Positions 12,085-56,845 of a DNA stretch of 64,000 nt are shown in pieces. Position 1 is the stretch's first letter. Each line of letters begins with the position of its first letter. The notes under the pieces are model-generated. The model did no database searches. It was given only the letters and a program-made list of their open reading frames with translations, and was not told the origin of the DNA. The stretch is from positions 1 through 64,000 of IMG/VR virus record IMGVR_UViG_3300044720_000021; one strand, written 5' to 3'. The translations under genes were made by a program, and so were the position numbers. Origin of the DNA: a virus.

Positions 12085-13127
12085 TCTACCGAGGGCGGGA
12101 TCTCAATGCTGTCGCGCTGTGGGAGCAGTGGTGCGACTTTCCTCCGAATTTCACCGGGGATGGTGGTGGCTTCTCACCGCTGGTCATCTGCCCCAACCCA
12201 GAGCACAACACAGACAAGCGACATTTTCAGGTCAACCTGGACAAGCCGCTTGTTCACTGCTTTGCATCATGCGGAATTTCAGGGACATACGAGCGGGCCA
12301 TCTCGATCATCACAGGATGCTCAGAACGAGAGGCCCGTAAGGAGCTCCTGAAACACGCTCGCGTCGGCCTCGGCCCGAGGTCAAAGCGAAAAGGACGCAC
12401 GCCGGACGGACAAGTCAAGAGGTTGCAGGATGAAATTCCAGCACCCTCGCTCGACTATGAGCGGTACATACCGCAAGCCGGCATGAATTACCTTTCTGCC
12501 CGAGGGGTCGGGGCCGACGAGATCGTGAAGTGGGAGATCGGATGGGATCCTGCCGAGAGACGGATTGTCATTCCGGCCCACGATGACAGGGGGATCGTCC
12601 GGTTCTTGATCAAGCGGGCAGTGAGCCCGAAGGACTTCCCCAAGTACCTCTACTGGCCCGAAAAAGCCCTCTGTGGGTGGGGAAAGACAGATATTCTCTA
12701 CGGTGCTTGCAGATTCGACCTGAAGCGCGTATCATCTTTTGGGCTCGTGCTCGTGGAGGGGAGCCTAGACACGGCGAGGATCGATTCCTTCGGTTTTCCG
12801 GCAGGAGGGATCCTGGGAACAGGGCTCAGTGAAAAGCAGAGAGGAGTGATCAATAGAACTAGACCCAAGCGGATTTTCCTTATGTTCGACAAGGACGCGG
12901 CGGGCGTCCAGAACATCTGGAAGGCAGAGGCGATGCTTCCAAAGCTACCGCTGTTCGTCTGCTTGTATCCCAAAGGAAAATCCGATCCTCAAGAATTGAC
13001 CCAAGAGGAGGCGGAATACTCCATTGAAAATGCACTGTCGTTGGTCAGATTCAAACGAAGGCTCCCGAAACGTCAAGCGAGAAGGAAGGTGACGCATGGC
13101 ACAGCCCACAGTCAGACGCGTTCGTAG
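12081..13127 (+). CDS. DNA primase (DnaG-type, zinc and TOPRIM)
   Basis: 348 residues. A zinc-binding N-terminus has Cys in LVICPNPEHNTD and Cys pairs in VHCFASCG. The TOPRIM core shows VLVEGSLDTARIDSFGF (catalytic Glu) and IFLMFDKDAAGVQN (DxD-type acidic pair). It makes RNA primers for lagging-strand synthesis beside the DnaB-like helicase. The last 32 bases overlap the ssDNA-binding gene, and the Arg/Lys-rich tail may contact the helicase. Confidence 0.85.
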   Translation: MIYRGRDLNAVALWEQWCDFPPNFTGDGGGFSPLVICPNPEHNTDKRHFQVNLDKPLVHCFASCGISGTYERAISIITGCSEREARKELLKHARVGLGPRSKRKGRTPDGQVKRLQDEIPAPSLDYERYIPQAGMNYLSARGVGADEIVKWEIGWDPAERRIVIPAHDDRGIVRFLIKRAVSPKDFPKYLYWPEKALCGWGKTDILYGACRFDLKRVSSFGLVLVEGSLDTARIDSFGFPAGGILGTGLSEKQRGVINRTRPKRIFLMFDKDAAGVQNIWKAEAMLPKLPLFVCLYPKGKSDPQELTQEEAEYSIENALSLVRFKRRLPKRQARRKVTHGTAHSQTRS

Positions 13128-14349
13128 CGTCGAAGATCGAAACGCCGGTCGTGGTCAGTTCATCACGCTGAAACAGACGAACGATCAGTTCGTTGGGTTC
13201 GCGCTTTTCAAGCCCGACCCCGAGCTCGATGACAACCCCGGCTATTTCGAATACTTCGAGCACTACACGCCAGCCACGGGGTACTTCCCGTGCATCGGAG
13301 ACGACTGCCCTCTCTGCGCGGAGGGTGACAATCCTTCCACGCGGGCAAAGACTCTCTGGCTGGTGCCGAACGACAACAAGGAAATGGATGCCGACGACGC
13401 GATCGTGAAGGTTTTCACGATGAACTGGTCGGTGATCCAGGAGTTCGCAGATCTTCATGCGGACGACGAGACGATCCTCAGTCGCGCGTTCCGCATCAAG
13501 CGGCTCGAAGGGAATGGGAAGTATGCGGTGCGTCCCAAGCCTGAAAAGCTGAAGGCTCCGCAGGTCAAGGCCGCGTTGAAGGACGCACCGGATCTCGAAC
13601 AGCTTGCGACCAAGCAGGCCGCTCGCGTGATGGAAGATCTCGACACGGCCGAGGCGATGGAGGCCGACGAGGACAAGGCCGAGGAGAAGGCCACGGCGAA
13701 GCAGTCGTCCACGTCCAAGGCGAAGAAGGGCAAGCCCGCAGAGGAGCCGGAGCCCGAGACGGGTGAGGACTTCGACCCGGAGGAGGCCAAGGAGTTCGCC
13801 GGGGAAGTCACGGTGAAAAAGCTGAACAAGTCCAAGCTGATCCTCACCGTCGAGACAGGGGACGTGTCGTTCGACGTGTACCTGATCGAAGGCGGCGACT
13901 TCGACATCGAGGACTACAACAAGGACGACACGCTGTATATCGAGGCTGCGAAGGACGAGGATGGCGATTTCATCGCCAGCGTGGTCACGAATGCAGAGGA
14001 GCCTGCCGAGGAGCCCGAGCCCGGTGACGAAGGTGACGAACCCGAACTGTTCGAGGGAGACGACTTCGACGGCAAGGTGACGGTCGTGTCGGTCAACTCG
14101 GAGAACGACACGCTCACGGTGAAAACCGAGGACGACAAGACGTTCGAGCTCTACTTCCTCGGTGAAGGAGAGGACGAGGACGGGAACGACTGGTCGAACC
14201 TCGATCTCGATGACTTCTCGGAGGACGAGGAGATTGTCGTCGTTGCGGAAAGGGACGGTGAGGGCGACATGCTCGCGTCCAAGTTTCCCGCGAAGGCGAA
14301 GGGCAAGAAGGCAGCAGCCGGCGCGAAGAAAGCGTCCGGTCGCAAGTAG
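13096..14349 (+). CDS. Single-stranded DNA-binding protein, gp32-like with long acidic tail
   Basis: 417 residues. The first ~150 residues look like a phage SSB core with a zinc knuckle PCIGDDCPLCAEGDN. The rest is built of very acidic linkers (EEPEPETGEDFDPEEA, EEPEPGDEGDEPE) around two similar beta domains beginning FAGEVTVKKLNKS and FDGKVTVVSVNSE, then a basic Lys/Ala tail. The two internal repeats are unusual for gp32-type SSBs. Position between primase and polymerase supports the call. Confidence 0.65.
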   Translation: MAQPTVRRVRSVEDRNAGRGQFITLKQTNDQFVGFALFKPDPELDDNPGYFEYFEHYTPATGYFPCIGDDCPLCAEGDNPSTRAKTLWLVPNDNKEMDADDAIVKVFTMNWSVIQEFADLHADDETILSRAFRIKRLEGNGKYAVRPKPEKLKAPQVKAALKDAPDLEQLATKQAARVMEDLDTAEAMEADEDKAEEKATAKQSSTSKAKKGKPAEEPEPETGEDFDPEEAKEFAGEVTVKKLNKSKLILTVETGDVSFDVYLIEGGDFDIEDYNKDDTLYIEAAKDEDGDFIASVVTNAEEPAEEPEPGDEGDEPELFEGDDFDGKVTVVSVNSENDTLTVKTEDDKTFELYFLGEGEDEDGNDWSNLDLDDFSEDEEIVVVAERDGEGDMLASKFPAKAKGKKAAAGAKKASGRK

Positions 14350-15498: not shown

Positions 15499-15966
15499 AT
15501 GGAGACAGTGACACAGGCACAGCTTCTCAGAGGCACGCTCGACATCATGGAGGACGATCTTCGGATCACGTCGAAGCAGGCGAATGACTTCGTGTCGTCG
15601 TTGCGTGCGGTAGTCGAGGAGCAGGTGGAGTTCGGGAACAAGGTCAACCTGCTTGGGCTCGGTATTTTCACTCCGGTTGGCGTTCTTGCCAAGCCGAAGC
15701 GGAAAGGCGTCAAGCCGCAGACTGGCGAGGAAGTTGTCTACCCGGCGAAGCCCGCGTCCGTGAAGCTGAAGTTCGGCATCGCCAAGCGCGTCAGGGAGGC
15801 TCTGCCGGCCACGACGAGTAGCGCAGGCAAGTCTCTCCTCTCTACGGCCAAGCAGCGGGCAGAGGCAGCCGCAGAGCGTCGGGCAAAGCGCGAGGAGGAG
15901 GAAGCCAAGGCGGCACGCAAGGCCGAGCGCGATGCGAAGAAGGCGGCGGGCGGGAAGAAGAAGTGA
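15499..15966 (+). CDS. HU/IHF-like DNA-binding protein with basic tail
   Basis: 155 residues from ATG 15499, behind AAAGGGCGGG. Residues ~1-95 follow the HU/IHF fold: helices with LLRGTLDIMEDDLRITSKQ and FVSSLRAVVEEQVEFG, the turn NKVNLLGLGIFTPVG, and the arm region ending in VKLKFGIAKRVREALP. The C-terminal ~50 residues are Lys/Ala/Glu-rich, like actinobacterial HupB extensions. A genome-bending or condensing role is likely. A candidate reader of the dispersed short motifs in this genome, though HU is usually non-specific. Confidence 0.75.
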   Translation: METVTQAQLLRGTLDIMEDDLRITSKQANDFVSSLRAVVEEQVEFGNKVNLLGLGIFTPVGVLAKPKRKGVKPQTGEEVVYPAKPASVKLKFGIAKRVREALPATTSSAGKSLLSTAKQRAEAAAERRAKREEEEAKAARKAERDAKKAAGGKKK

Positions 15967-30347: not shown

Positions 30348-30520
30348 TTTCATGGTGGGGCAGACTTCGCAACCCAGATCGATTTCGGCTGGACGTGAAG
30401 CGCGTTGTTGTCATCGACGGGCTCGACTTCATCATTCGTGACTTTCATGCGATTGGTGCGTACAGTCAAGACGACTGCGACGAGATCATGGTCAGGTTCG
30501 AGCGGTGGAATGGCTCGTAA
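30344..30520 (+). CDS. Hypothetical protein
   Basis: 58 residues from GTG 30344 (AAGGAGG upstream). Mixed strands (FRLDVKRVVVIDGLDFIIR) and a helix. Coupled to both neighbours. Unknown function. Confidence 0.5.
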   Translation: MISWWGRLRNPDRFRLDVKRVVVIDGLDFIIRDFHAIGAYSQDDCDEIMVRFERWNGS

Positions 30521-30782
30521 GAGCGCAGCCAAGTCACGCCGAGCCCCACAGGTGGCGCATCTGAAGCCGCCCAAGTTCGCGCACTATCTCACGCTCGGTG
30601 AACTGTCAGTGAAAATCGGGAGGGATCCAAGCCGGATCCGCGCCCTCGAACGAGAGGGCCGTTTGCCTGAAGCGAAGCGAGCTCAGGTGGGCAAGCTGCC
30701 TGTCCGGCTCTACTCGCCCGAGCAGGTGGTCGAGATCGAGAGGATTTTCAAAGAGATGCGCCCTGGCCGTCCGCGTGCTTGA
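30510..30782 (+). CDS. MerR-like helix-turn-helix DNA-binding protein
   Basis: 90 residues, ATG 30510. After a basic tail comes YLTLGELSVKIGRDPSRIRAL and EREGRLPEAKRAQVG, then RLYSPEQVVEIERIF: a MerR/excisionase-type winged HTH. Its stop codon is part of the -35 box of promoter P3, whose spacer carries the CACCC operator. It is therefore a candidate regulator of the P1-P3 family; MerR proteins typically bind in promoter spacers. That link is inference. Confidence 0.65.
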   Translation: MARKSAAKSRRAPQVAHLKPPKFAHYLTLGELSVKIGRDPSRIRALEREGRLPEAKRAQVGKLPVRLYSPEQVVEIERIFKEMRPGRPRA

Positions 30783-31348: not shown

Positions 31349-31668
31349 TGGCTACAAACAAGAAGCCCATCACGGAAGTTCAGCGCGCGGAATTTCAGGC
31401 CAACGTCATCGACGTGGTGAATGCGTTCCTCGACTCCGACATCGCGAACCAACTGCATGTCGAATTCACGCAGCATCTTGGGGATGCGCACGGGCATAAG
31501 CCCAAGGACATCACGACTCATTACGCGGTGGTGAAATTCCCTCACCGGGGATGCAACCACGAGCGCCTTATGCAGATCATCGATCTTGCAACGTTCCTCG
31601 ACTGCAAGGTGTCTCTGAGTGAGGACGCTGAGGTTGTCATCTGGCCGGGGAGCGCGCGAGAGTCATGA
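31348..31668 (+). CDS. Hypothetical protein
   Basis: 106 residues, ATG 31348 (GTG 31345 also possible). Helix ITEVQRAEFQANVIDVVNAF, then HAVVK-type strands with CNHERLMQIIDLATFLDCKV. Unknown function. Confidence 0.5.
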   Translation: MATNKKPITEVQRAEFQANVIDVVNAFLDSDIANQLHVEFTQHLGDAHGHKPKDITTHYAVVKFPHRGCNHERLMQIIDLATFLDCKVSLSEDAEVVIWPGSARES

Positions 31669-32063
31669 GAAAAGGCGGCGGGCGCACATGGTCAGCGACG
31701 GTCACGGTTGTTGGTCTGCAATTCCGTTGGAAGGCAGATGGTCGCGAGACGTTGGCTCGCAACGTGCCGATCCCGGTGCTTCTCGAACGAGAGCCGGCGA
31801 ACGAGCACGATGAAAACGCGGTCAAGGTGATCATCGCTCAGAACTACAGCCTGAAGGCGCTGAGGGGAATCCACTTGGGCTACCTGCGTCGAGAGGTTGC
31901 GGCGATGATCGCGCCCAAGCTGGACGAGGGGAGCATCGAGCCTGTCGTGCTGCGGGTCACTGCGGTGGATCCGAAGCCGGGAGAGGCGGCGCTCGAAATG
32001 ACGTTCCGCGATGTCAAGCTAAAGACGACCGCTGTGAAAAAGGGTCGCAAACAAGCCAAGTGA
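31665..32063 (+). CDS. HIRAN-domain protein
   Basis: 132 residues, ATG 31665. VTVVGLQFRW, LLEREPANEHDENAVKVII and IHLGYLRREVAAMIAPKLD reproduce the HIRAN domain pattern almost end to end, so this is a stand-alone HIRAN module. In HLTF the domain binds 3' ends of ssDNA at stalled forks. In this phage it may guide repair or helicase loading together with the SF2 helicase. Confidence 0.75.
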   Translation: MRKGGGRTWSATVTVVGLQFRWKADGRETLARNVPIPVLLEREPANEHDENAVKVIIAQNYSLKALRGIHLGYLRREVAAMIAPKLDEGSIEPVVLRVTAVDPKPGEAALEMTFRDVKLKTTAVKKGRKQAK

Positions 32064-32071
32064 CAAGCCAC

Positions 32072-32100
32072 TTGACAATCTGATTGTCAGCGTGTAGTTT
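32072..32100 (+). promoter_or_regulatory. Promoter with perfect TGACAATC palindrome operator
   Basis: TTGACA (32072-32077), 17-bp spacer, TAGTTT (32095-32100). TGACAATCTGATTGTCA (32073-32089) is a perfect inverted repeat with one central base, covering the -35 box and most of the spacer. It is the full-site version of the 8-mer dispersed through the genome. Drives the histone-like gene. Confidence 0.75.
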
Positions 32101-32135
32101 GTCAGTGTCCGAGACGGCGACGAAGGAGGAGAAAG

Positions 32136-33862: not shown

Positions 33863-33891
33863 TTGACATGCCGTGGCCGTTCAGGTAGATT
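33863..33891 (+). promoter_or_regulatory. Promoter P5 for the anti-restriction operon
   Basis: TTGACA (33863-33868), 17-bp spacer, TAGATT (33886-33891). The -10 box runs into GATTGTCA and a second TTGTCA, i.e. the genome-wide 8-mer. A half operator AAAATCCACCC lies just before the -35 box. Confidence 0.7.
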
Positions 33892-33924
33892 GTCATTGTC
33901 AAGCAAACGAGAGGGAGGTAGCGC

Positions 33925-36250: not shown

Positions 36251-36280
36251 AGGGCCGGGAAACCGGCCCTTTTTCTTTCT
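36251..36280 (+). terminator. Rho-independent terminator
   Basis: AGGGCCGG, GAAA loop, CCGGCCCT, then TTTTCTTTCT. This is the most canonical terminator in the window and ends the P5 operon. Confidence 0.85.
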
Positions 36281-36293
36281 GAAAATCTGGGAT

Positions 36294-36319
36294 AATTTTC
36301 ACGCGTTTGCCGATGTCAG
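36294..36319 (+). repeat. 26-bp box, copy 2
   Basis: Second copy of the box at 33541-33566 (22 of 26 identical), 14 bases after the terminator. Confidence 0.5.
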
Positions 36320-38030: not shown

Positions 38031-38249
38031 CTAGATTGTCATTCGATTGACTGTGCGAGGCTTGAGCGCTTCCGCTGAGATGCCATAGCGCGCGAGAACC
38101 TCGGAAACGACACCTAGCTTTTCTTCCTCGTCCAACCACGCTGCTACCCGGATCCCTTCGAGCGTGAGCAAATCGACCGTGGACGGGCTCAACTCTCGAC
38201 CCGTGAGCGTGTCGATGGCCAGAGAAGCCAACTGTGCCGAGTTCAGCAT
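38031..38249 (-). CDS. Hypothetical helical protein
   Basis: 72 residues, leftward, ATG 38249. Helical (AQLASLAIDTLTGRE, EEEKLGVVSEVLARYG). Overlaps the upstream gene by seven bases. Confidence 0.55.
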   Translation of the reverse strand: MLNSAQLASLAIDTLTGRELSPSTVDLLTLEGIRVAAWLDEEEKLGVVSEVLARYGISAEALKPRTVNRMTI

Positions 38250-54590: not shown

Positions 54591-55652
54591 ATGCAGCCTT
54601 ACTGGCAGACCCTCGACAAGTCCTCCGCGCTGAAAGCGTGGCGGACAGCGATCAACGAGGGTGATCTTCGCCGCGAGCTCCTGATCTCGGAGATGATCTG
54701 CGAGATGGTGGACGTGGAGAACGGCGGGATCCAGAACATCGAATGGGGCTCAGAGGACGCGGTGAACATCGCAGAGATGATCAACACGTCCCAGGGCTCG
54801 ATGGATCTGCTCGAAAAGGTGCGGGTGGACGTGGCCTTCGGGCTCGCTGAAATTCCGCTTCTCTACGGGCCGATCTACGAGCGGGTCGATGGCCCGTTCC
54901 CCGGCGGCGTGTTTCAGATCGATGAAAACACGTTGCAGGCCGATGTCGTTTTCCTCGAAAAGTTCGAGGGAGGCGAGGTTCAGTTCGGAACGCTCCGCAA
55001 GGGAGCTCCGTCGCTCGGGAAGATCCAGACCTACGCGGCTGGATTCGAGTGGACGGAGGACATGGTGGAGTTCGATCAGACGTGGAGCATCACGCTTCAC
55101 AACCGCGCCTTCGGGCGTGCGTACAACGCTCTGATCAACCATCTCCACCTGTCTCCGATCATCGGCTTCACCTACGGCGCAGGGAACTCGTCAGCCGCCG
55201 TGACCACCGGAGCAACGCTTCAGGAGGACACGCACCTGACGTTCCAGGCGGCGTACAAGGAGACGGTGATGGCTGCTCCGCAGCGCAGGGGCTCCGTGCT
55301 GCTCGCGTCCGAGTCGGATCGCTTCCAGATCGAGGAAGCGCTTCTGACCCCAGTGCGGGACGTGCAGGGCAACTCGCTGCCGACCATCCCCATCGACACC
55401 ATCATCTACTACGACGGCGAGACGTTGCAGCGCGGCTCGGACGTTTTCACCTATCCGGGTGTGACGCCGGGAACCGCGTTCATGATCTTCCCGAAGCAGA
55501 AGATGAAGGAGATGCTGCATCACGATCTCCGCATCGACATCGGCCCTGCCGACATCTCTCGGTTGGTCGAAGGTCAGCAGGTTGGTCGGGCTCGGCGCGG
55601 TCTGTACGCAGACATCGCCGGGAGCGTCGAGAAGATCACGCTGCCGACCTAA
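54591..55652 (+). CDS. Major capsid protein
   Basis: 353 residues, ATG behind AAGGGAG. HK97-fold character: N-terminal helix KSSALKAWRTAINEGDLRRE, E-loop-like RVDGPFPGGVFQ, P-domain around WTEDMVEFDQTWSITLHNRA, and C-terminal VGRARRGLYADIAGSVEKI. Position after scaffold and decoration proteins is canonical. Confidence 0.85.
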   Translation: MQPYWQTLDKSSALKAWRTAINEGDLRRELLISEMICEMVDVENGGIQNIEWGSEDAVNIAEMINTSQGSMDLLEKVRVDVAFGLAEIPLLYGPIYERVDGPFPGGVFQIDENTLQADVVFLEKFEGGEVQFGTLRKGAPSLGKIQTYAAGFEWTEDMVEFDQTWSITLHNRAFGRAYNALINHLHLSPIIGFTYGAGNSSAAVTTGATLQEDTHLTFQAAYKETVMAAPQRRGSVLLASESDRFQIEEALLTPVRDVQGNSLPTIPIDTIIYYDGETLQRGSDVFTYPGVTPGTAFMIFPKQKMKEMLHHDLRIDIGPADISRLVEGQQVGRARRGLYADIAGSVEKITLPT

Positions 55653-55948: not shown

Positions 55949-56390
55949 TGAAAATAGCGGCCTTCCCAACACCATCGTTCAGTGCGATGGTTGCGAGAAG
56001 CCGTTGAACGTCCTGAAGCCCTTCCTCTCTGTCGTCGTCAAGGCGCAGCGGCAGGTACTCGTCACAACGGTCGCACAGGCCGAAGGTGACAACTTCGAGG
56101 AAGTGGAAAATCCCGAGGCGGAAGCCCCGGACGTGTACCTCGGCACTCGCTCAGGTCGCGGTCGGATTCTCTCGCTCCACGATTTTTCATGCCTCAATCG
56201 CTACGCAAGGGACGACAAGCGGAAGGACGCACCCGCAAAGATCATGCAGCATCACGAACCGGGCGAGATCTACGTGCCGGCTGACAATCGCTCCCCCGAG
56301 GAGTTGGTCGAGGCCGGAGATCTTCCCGAGGCGATGCTGGCGGTCTACGCGGAACAGGCCGATGCAATCGAACCAGGGGAGGGTGAGTGA
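55941..56390 (+). CDS. Hypothetical protein with zinc knuckle
   Basis: 149 residues, ATG 55941. VQCDGCEKPL at the start; HDFSCLNRYARDDKRKDAPA later. Acidic C-terminus. Unknown function, in the head-connector block. Confidence 0.5.
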   Translation: MADENSGLPNTIVQCDGCEKPLNVLKPFLSVVVKAQRQVLVTTVAQAEGDNFEEVENPEAEAPDVYLGTRSGRGRILSLHDFSCLNRYARDDKRKDAPAKIMQHHEPGEIYVPADNRSPEELVEAGDLPEAMLAVYAEQADAIEPGEGE

Positions 56391-56845
56391 TGGATCACGC
56401 ACTCGATCTGCCACGGGCCTTCCCGAGCCTGCGTGAGCTCTGGCGGCGGCTGATCCACTTGGCCGTCGTCGTGACAAACGCAGGTGAGGAGTTCGTGGTT
56501 GACAAGCTGAACGAGACAGTGCAGACCAAGCCCGAGTATTGCGGTTGGGGTGAGGGGGCGGGAACGGCTGCGAAGGCCGACACCGATCTTTTCACCCCTG
56601 TGAACACGGATCAGGCGAACACGACTCTCCGTCAGCTTTCAACGACGAGCAAGACCGGCACGGGAGCCACGGCGAAGTATCAGGCCATTGCCACGCTCAC
56701 GAGCCCGAACGCGAACAACAAGACGAACGCCGGCTTGTGGACGGCGGCGACGGCGGGGACGTTGATTGTCAAGGGCGACCATGCATCGACCCCGATGGCG
56801 ATTGGCGACCGAATCGAATACACGTTCACCATCGACCCGAGCTAG
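56390..56845 (+). CDS. Possible minor head or connector protein
   Basis: 151 residues, ATG 56390 (GTG 56387 in frame). LRELWRRLIHLAVVVTNAGE is helical, followed by Thr/Ala-rich strands (TLRQLSTTSKTGTGATAKYQ). Ends before a hairpin. Unknown function. Confidence 0.5.
   Translation: MDHALDLPRAFPSLRELWRRLIHLAVVVTNAGEEFVVDKLNETVQTKPEYCGWGEGAGTAAKADTDLFTPVNTDQANTTLRQLSTTSKTGTGATAKYQAIATLTSPNANNKTNAGLWTAATAGTLIVKGDHASTPMAIGDRIEYTFTIDPS

Follow-up and report, generated by a model that had tools for sequence, protein, structure and literature searches.

Dense networks of short words in a clade of soil phages suggest a phage protein that recognises hundreds of sites in its own genome

A perfect 17-bp palindrome lies on the promoter of a gene for a Lys/Ala-rich protein in an uncultured tailed soil phage, and its half-site, the octamer TGACAATC, is dispersed through the rest of the genome. 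What reads this word, and why are there so many copies? The window analysed here comprises the first 64,000 nucleotides of the 69,205-b virus record IMGVR_UViG_3300044720_000021, a phage that carries genes for a contractile tail as well as for its own DnaE, DnaB, primase, and RecA. The first-pass annotation put the octamer at about 40 single copies on both strands where about 1 was expected, and our count agreed, with 45 matches in the window (23 on the plus strand and 22 on the minus strand) against 2.35 ± 1.5 expected, and 52 in the whole record. A codon-aware shuffle, proposed in that annotation as a check, left the excess in place: 31 copies lie in genes, compared with 2.1 ± 1.4 (maximum 8) in 200 synonymous-codon shuffles. 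The octamer therefore stands, and codon usage was ruled out as the cause of the words.

The locus contains the following features, of which the palindrome and the two promoters were read from the sequence:

31665–32063, plus strand, gene of a HIRAN-domain protein (Pfam PF08797, E 1e-10), directly upstream of the Lys/Ala-rich gene both here and in the relatives (conserved in 6/6)
32061–32104, either strand, proposed operator with TGACAA half-sites at +32061, +32073, −32084, and −32099 within 44 bp, a closer packing of half-sites than anywhere else in the record
32072–32100, plus strand, sigma70-type promoter of the 32136 gene (TTGACA at 32072–32077, 17 bp, TAGTTT at 32095–32100)
32073–32089, either strand, perfect 17-bp palindrome TGACAATCTGATTGTCA, composed of TGACAATC-T-GATTGTCA, the closest inverted pair of the genome
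32136–33053, plus strand, gene of the Lys/Ala-rich protein (305 aa, with an N-terminal Rho_N/SAP-like helical domain, disordered basic stretches, a helical core, and a basic tail), found in 6/6 long relatives
33863–33901, plus strand, second promoter (TTGACA at 33863–33868, TAGATT at 33886–33891)

Because the −35 element occupies 32072–32077 and is followed by a 17-bp spacer, the palindrome takes in most of the −35 and reaches into the spacer, which is where it had been placed. It forms the core of the four-half-site cluster, whose members are 11–15 bp apart, whereas elsewhere pairs closer than ~50 bp are strongly depleted. MerR-type operators are palindromes between the −35 and −10 of a regulated promoter; the palindrome here lies on the −35 and spacer, and the spacer has 17 bp rather than the 19–20 bp of activated MerR promoters. 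The second promoter carries two tandem TGACAA half-sites on the minus strand (33890–33895 and 33896–33901), on and just after its −10. The octamer had also been reported at this promoter and beside ribosome-binding sites at 38034 and 43268. Accordingly, we found one copy at 33888–33895, overlapping the −10 element, and copies at 38034 and 43269 just 5′ of Shine-Dalgarno-like stretches. A second close inverted pair, TGAAAATCTGGGATAATTTTCA, is located at 36280–36301, in the intergenic space that separates the last rightward gene from the leftward ones, and may be an operator or belong to a terminator.

A search for over-represented words revealed that TGACAATC is a minor spelling of a much larger word system led by TGAAAA, which occurs 300 times in the window against 25 expected. 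The one-letter neighbours of TGAAAA are at or below expectation, save TGACAA (104 versus 29 expected) and TGAAAT (54 versus 24 expected). These two weaker cores depend on the flank. Over the entire record, the enrichment of TGACAA is 13.4-fold when [TG]C follows and 1.6-fold with other flanks, and that of TGAAAT 6.9-fold and 1.3-fold, respectively, whereas TGAAAA is enriched 23.5-fold before [TG]C and still 9.5-fold otherwise. Thus, TGACAATC consists of a weaker core together with the TC that rescues it, and TGAAAATC, which combines TGAAAA with the preference for [T/G]C, is the best core with its favoured flank; TGACAAGG is predicted to be a weak site. Such a flank pattern would be expected from selection by a protein with a single affinity rule, under which the best core suffices unaided and weaker cores need a favourable flank. 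The network can be listed as follows:

1–64000, either strand, dispersed network of TGAAAA (300) and TGACAATC (45), with the weaker TGACAAGC and TGAAAT[TG]C, from counts

Both orientations are used, and 234 of the 300 TGAAAA sites in the window lie inside genes. Word density is 5.56 per kb in core genes, 5.57 per kb in accessory genes, and 9.82 per kb between genes. At many gene starts (for example 2386, 8712, 15499, 33376, and 60441), TGAAAA falls in the interval from the ribosome-binding site to the start codon (GGTGAAAATG), a position in which it leaves the protein sequence unaffected. Two palindromic words, GGATCC (136 versus 48 expected) and GCCGGC (146 versus 64 expected), are also enriched in the window.

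The spacing of the sites is more uniform than expected by chance. The gaps between TGAAAA sites have a coefficient of variation of 0.65, compared with 1.00 ± 0.06 for random placement, and only 3 gaps are shorter than 30 bp where 38 were expected. The combined word set occurs about once per 160 bp, occupies every 1-kb bin of the window, and has a variance among bins of 2.5 against 6.0 under random placement. Moreover, the spellings exclude one another. TGACAATC lies within 30 bp of TGAAAA once, against 13.7 ± 3.2 expected, and none of 1000 shifted controls was as low; the control words GGATCC and GAGGAG showed no spacing relation to TGAAAA in the same test. TGACAA and TGAAAT exclude TGAAAA only when [TG]C comes next, and hardly at all without that flank. 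Mutual exclusion of spellings was observed in seven genomes, again with negative controls.

Pooled over five genomes, pair density is near zero at contact and reaches 1 at about 60 bp, giving an exclusion zone of about 50–60 bp that is alike for same-strand, convergent, and divergent pairs. The system therefore counts sites on double-stranded DNA whatever their orientation. Neither longer-range order nor 10.5-bp helical phasing appeared in the pooled pair density of these five genomes, and a nucleosome-like periodic array is thus not indicated; a period-3 signal in pair spacing reflects codons. What seems to matter is coverage, with no fixed lattice required. A requirement for conserved site positions was also set aside, as the words and control words are retained at aligned positions with similar frequency in relatives at 64–72% DNA identity. 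Judged from these alignments, density and spacing seem to be kept rather than places, with positions turning over.

Since TGACAATC avoids TGAAAA as TGAAAA avoids itself, both words probably share one double-strand reader. An earlier suggestion that two words one base apart may share a reader was strengthened by the short-range mutual exclusion and the single affinity-like rule, and TGACAATC and TGAAAA/TGAAAATC very probably do so. More generally, the counts and spacing make it highly probable that the words are a network of binding sites on double-stranded DNA, recognised in each genome by a single reader.

The network extends across a clade of phages. The conserved gene at 54591–55652 (phrog_3116), whose product we guess from gene position to be the capsid protein, retrieved 76 relatives in IMG/VR as well as a 70,839-b contig from the bin of an uncultured Acidobacteria MAG. 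Nearly all relatives with a capsid identity of ≥53% carry a dense word network, spelled in other dialects, and the network is absent from relatives at ≤43%. The dialects comprise TGAAAA (12 loci, including the record of the window), TGACAA with TGAAAA (G001 and G021p), TGCCAA (seven loci, including G007 with TGCCAAG), and TGNAATT (37 loci, including G008). Motif-bearing genomes contain about 430–590 sites each, one per ~95–170 bp, mostly in genes and also between them. On the capsid-protein tree, word-bearing rows form one side of a branch with 100/100 support, all 12 of the 12 outgroup rows lack a word, and the TGCCAA rows form one clade. At least 11 changes of dialect label are needed on this tree, a count that is approximate because the labels were set by a simple threshold; four rows within the clade were labelled as having none, three of them from contigs shorter than 5 kb.

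Some relatives depart from this pattern. G003, G011, and G022 showed weaker enrichment and near-random spacing under the words chosen. Mixed weaker words (TGAAATT, TGACAA, and TGACATT) with near-random spacing were seen in G003 and G002 (L096–L099 and L119–L121), a lineage that is perhaps between dialects. In L002 (1–8396, GC 48%), whose capsid protein is 77% identical to that of the window, the network is absent from the 8.4 kb available, a possible loss of the word system. The bacterial contigs sampled from the Acidobacteria MAG showed no enrichment of the hexamer; the word therefore belongs to the phage, and a host-derived word was ruled out. Binning suggested this MAG as the host. In the same bin, contig C138 of G021 (L155) is strongly enriched in AAGGATGA-type repeats. 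A DNA search of phages for a cultured relative gave no match, and the capsid relatives among cultured phages are all below 43% identity.

The promoter of the Lys/Ala-rich gene was compared across the clade. The orthologous genes of six relatives keep a TTGACR-17/18-TANNNT promoter, with TTGACA or TTGACG. In G007, this promoter carries the densest cluster of its genome, four tandem TGACAA/TGCCAA half-sites on and just upstream of it. One or two spread sites only are present at the ortholog promoter in G001 and G021p, and the cluster is absent there in G008, G011, and G015. Because the densest clusters of both genomes lie at the promoters of the window and G007, regulation of the 32136 gene by the reader is likely in these two and unproven elsewhere. 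Repression of the 32136 gene has about an even chance.

Several conserved proteins could serve as the reader or its partner:

15499–15966, plus strand, gene of an HU/IHF-family DNA-binding protein (Pfam PF00216, E 6e-11), candidate second reader or co-factor
30510–30782, plus strand, gene of a 90-aa MerR/RacA/BldC-like winged helix-turn-helix protein, the best reader candidate on the basis of Pfam, AlphaFold, Foldseek, and conservation

The 30510 gene starts with ATG at 30510; the gene caller had chosen the GTG at 30552, which is in the same frame. Its product has a MerR-type winged helix-turn-helix (Pfam MerR_1, 23.2 bits against a cut-off of 21.6) and ends in an AT-hook-like PGRPR. The AlphaFold model (pLDDT 83.5) matched RacA–DNA best in Foldseek (E 0.012), with HiNmlR, BmrR, and BldC among the other top matches (E 0.012–0.05 for the four together); it contains no coiled coil, the predicted helices stopping at residue 69 of the 76 modelled. 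The MerR-like gene is kept in every long motif-bearing relative, and the genes found in 6/6 long relatives include 32136, the HIRAN gene, and the MerR-like gene within ~2 kb upstream. In G007, which has the least A/T-rich word, the AT-hook-like core of the tail is lost, a single case and hence an anecdote. Gordonia phage GMA6 (NC_030906) is the only cultured phage with a match to the candidate, a weak one at 56385–56627 (30.6% over 62 aa, E 0.01), and its genome has no comparable dense word. The modest fold match predicted for the 30510 protein (E 0.012) and the commonness of MerR-like domains count against it as the reader. Moreover, the reader is not singled out, because HU-like and 32136-like proteins are conserved too. 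On conservation and predicted fold, the case for the 30510 protein as the reader is evenly balanced, with the HU-like and 32136 proteins as alternatives.

The HU-like protein was found in 7 of the 12 records searched and in the Acidobacteria-bin contig. It was not found in G015, but this contig breaks exactly at the expected place of the gene, so its absence there says nothing. For the 32136 protein, no Pfam or PHROG family and no known histone or H1 domain was detected; a Rho_N match in the G001 ortholog fell just below the cut-off, and the predicted fold has low overall confidence, with a helical core that found no PDB match. The products of genes 32136 and 46967 had been named as possible readers, and the better candidate, the MerR-like 30510 protein, was not among them. 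Of the two, the former lacks any recognised domain for sequence-specific binding and its tails are mostly disordered, and the latter was not found in the seven motif-bearing relatives longer than 45 kb that were searched, which discounts the 46967 helix-turn-helix protein as a universal reader. Among other phage genes, 45116–45775 encodes a dual-specificity protein phosphatase domain (PF00782, E 7e-15), and 13096–14349 encodes an SSB-like protein whose acidic segments vary in length among relatives.

We propose the following model. A single protein encoded by the phage would bind the words, recognising them in double-stranded DNA whichever way they point. Selection would keep a site within reach across the whole phage genome, and a second site within ~50 bp would earn no credit. 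The reader might load at each site and so nucleate a genome-wide, sequence-addressed nucleoprotein coat, which the Lys/Ala-rich 32136 protein and/or the HU-like 15499 protein could join in covering, folding, or marking the phage genome. Such a coat would distinguish the phage genome from host DNA, and the four half-sites on the 32136 promoter, palindrome included, would let the reader repress that gene. Of the earlier proposal that a regulator represses its own gene and coats the genome, binding-site behaviour throughout the genome was borne out and a protein that regulates the 32136 promoter is plausible, but the L5 model was not supported and the named readers were not the best candidates. 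We infer the identity of the reader, the coating, and the autoregulation from sequence patterns and predicted structures. A coating or organising function seems to us neither favoured nor disfavoured, and the best explanation as a whole, with one phage reader, a genome-wide coat, and probable repression of 32136, may be right about half the time. A fuller picture, a soil-phage clade with sequence-addressed chromatin in which a MerR-like protein at evenly spaced words and co-evolving dialects separate self from host, is tentative and falls somewhat short of an even prospect.

Transcription silencing, in which a repressor on dispersed sites blocks transcription in the prophage state and the sites have no structural role, appears unlikely. 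Half-sites do lie on two promoters (32061–32104 and 33890–33901), and L5-type phages offer a precedent in which the stoperator consensus also differs between relatives (PMC5712189). However, most sites here are inside genes, in both orientations and at equal density in core and accessory genes; they number about 430–590 per genome against 24 in L5; and neither the even coverage nor the ~50-bp exclusion is necessary for stopping transcription. In addition, no integrase was among the proteins scanned.

Slightly less probable are Chi-like recombination words or uptake-like self words that would make RecA, a nuclease, or a helicase favour the phage's own DNA. Phage genes for RecA, a PD-(D/E)XK nuclease, and a helicase are present, and neisserial uptake sequences likewise occur in dialects, at one per 400–1100 bp (PMC7371117). 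Chi, however, acts in one orientation and predicts that opposite sites are independent, yet opposite sites exclude here; the words are several times denser than uptake sequences, and uptake machinery is not expected in a tailed phage. Improbable to much the same degree, and perhaps a shade more so, is a target of a phage- or host-encoded DNA modification system that marks phage DNA. The targets of asymmetric methyltransferases resemble such asymmetric, adenine-containing words of 6–7 bp, and a mark would need even coverage too. A methyltransferase was, however, not among the proteins scanned, short accessory genes being only partly covered, and the promoter clusters of half-sites would be left unexplained.

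Recognition sites for a primase or another single-strand, strand-specific replication enzyme are very improbable. Replication enzymes would want short intervals, and primase, DnaB, and DnaE are all encoded, but a strand-specific enzyme is not expected to produce exclusion that is as strong between strands as within one; half-sites also form a palindromic promoter cluster, and strand bias is not consistent across relatives. Same-strand, convergent, and divergent pairs behave alike, and primase and Chi-type sites were both rejected on this ground. A reader-free origin in intrinsic DNA mechanics (A-tract or TG-step bending) or in mutation bias can practically be dismissed: every spelling joins a TG/CA step to an A/T-rich part, but one-letter variants of similar mechanics are depleted, the TGCCAA and TGAAAT dialects differ mechanically, and mutation bias explains neither the even spacing nor the exclusion between spellings.

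If the model of one phage reader is true, a virus places a binding site every ~100–170 bp genome-wide, in genes and between them, and rewrites hundreds of sites as the preference of its reader drifts. The network would then be a virus-specific self mark or chromatin, and the clade, with at least 11 dialect changes, a natural experiment on the evolution of DNA-binding specificity. Metagenomic fragments could moreover be assigned to the phage clade by their dialect. These findings suggest that a phage protein recognises hundreds of sites in its own genome, something of which we found no description in any virus in the open-access literature; nor did open-access papers yield a description of a dense, evenly spaced word network in a phage.

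The known systems each share a part of this arrangement. The stoperators of mycobacteriophage L5 comprise 24 sites of 13 bp, which mostly lie between genes and face one way relative to transcription (PMC5712189). Like the present words, they are dispersed copies of one word in a phage genome, with one on a promoter and a consensus that varies between relatives (PMC5712189). In contrast, our system has about 430–590 sites of 6–8 bp, mostly in genes, in both orientations, evenly spread, and with an exclusion zone. The stoperator model invoked in the first-pass annotation was thus not supported, as number, place, orientation, and spacing all differ, and no L5 gp71-type repressor was matched among the proteins scanned. 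The DNA uptake sequences of Neisseriaceae, about 12 bp long, occur once per 400–1100 bp in a bacterial chromosome and are linked to competence (PMC7371117). They too are over-represented genome-wide words with related spellings in related lineages (PMC7371117), and dialects of this kind were found here, but in a tailed phage, with words of 6–8 bp that are far denser, and where uptake machinery is not expected.

Among MerR-like proteins, BldC of Streptomyces has a small domain solved with DNA and is one of the candidate's fold matches, but it is a cellular regulator. We know of no genome-wide word network for BldC. RacA of Bacillus subtilis is a MerR-like winged helix that binds dispersed ram sites, spreads, and condenses DNA, an example of a MerR-like protein organising a chromosome from scattered sites (PMC6593407). 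It shares the winged helix with the candidate and is its best Foldseek match, whereas RacA has a coiled coil and anchors the chromosome at the cell pole, and the candidate has 90 aa, an AT-hook-like tail, and 16% identity. Finally, gp94 of mycobacteriophage Alexphander is a phage MerR-type DNA-binding protein that is essential for lytic growth and forms large complexes along phage DNA (PMC11242194). With 228 aa, a DinB-like domain, little sequence discrimination, and no known binding word, it differs from the candidate; like the candidate it is phage-encoded and MerR-like, and it shows that such a protein can coat phage DNA (PMC11242194).
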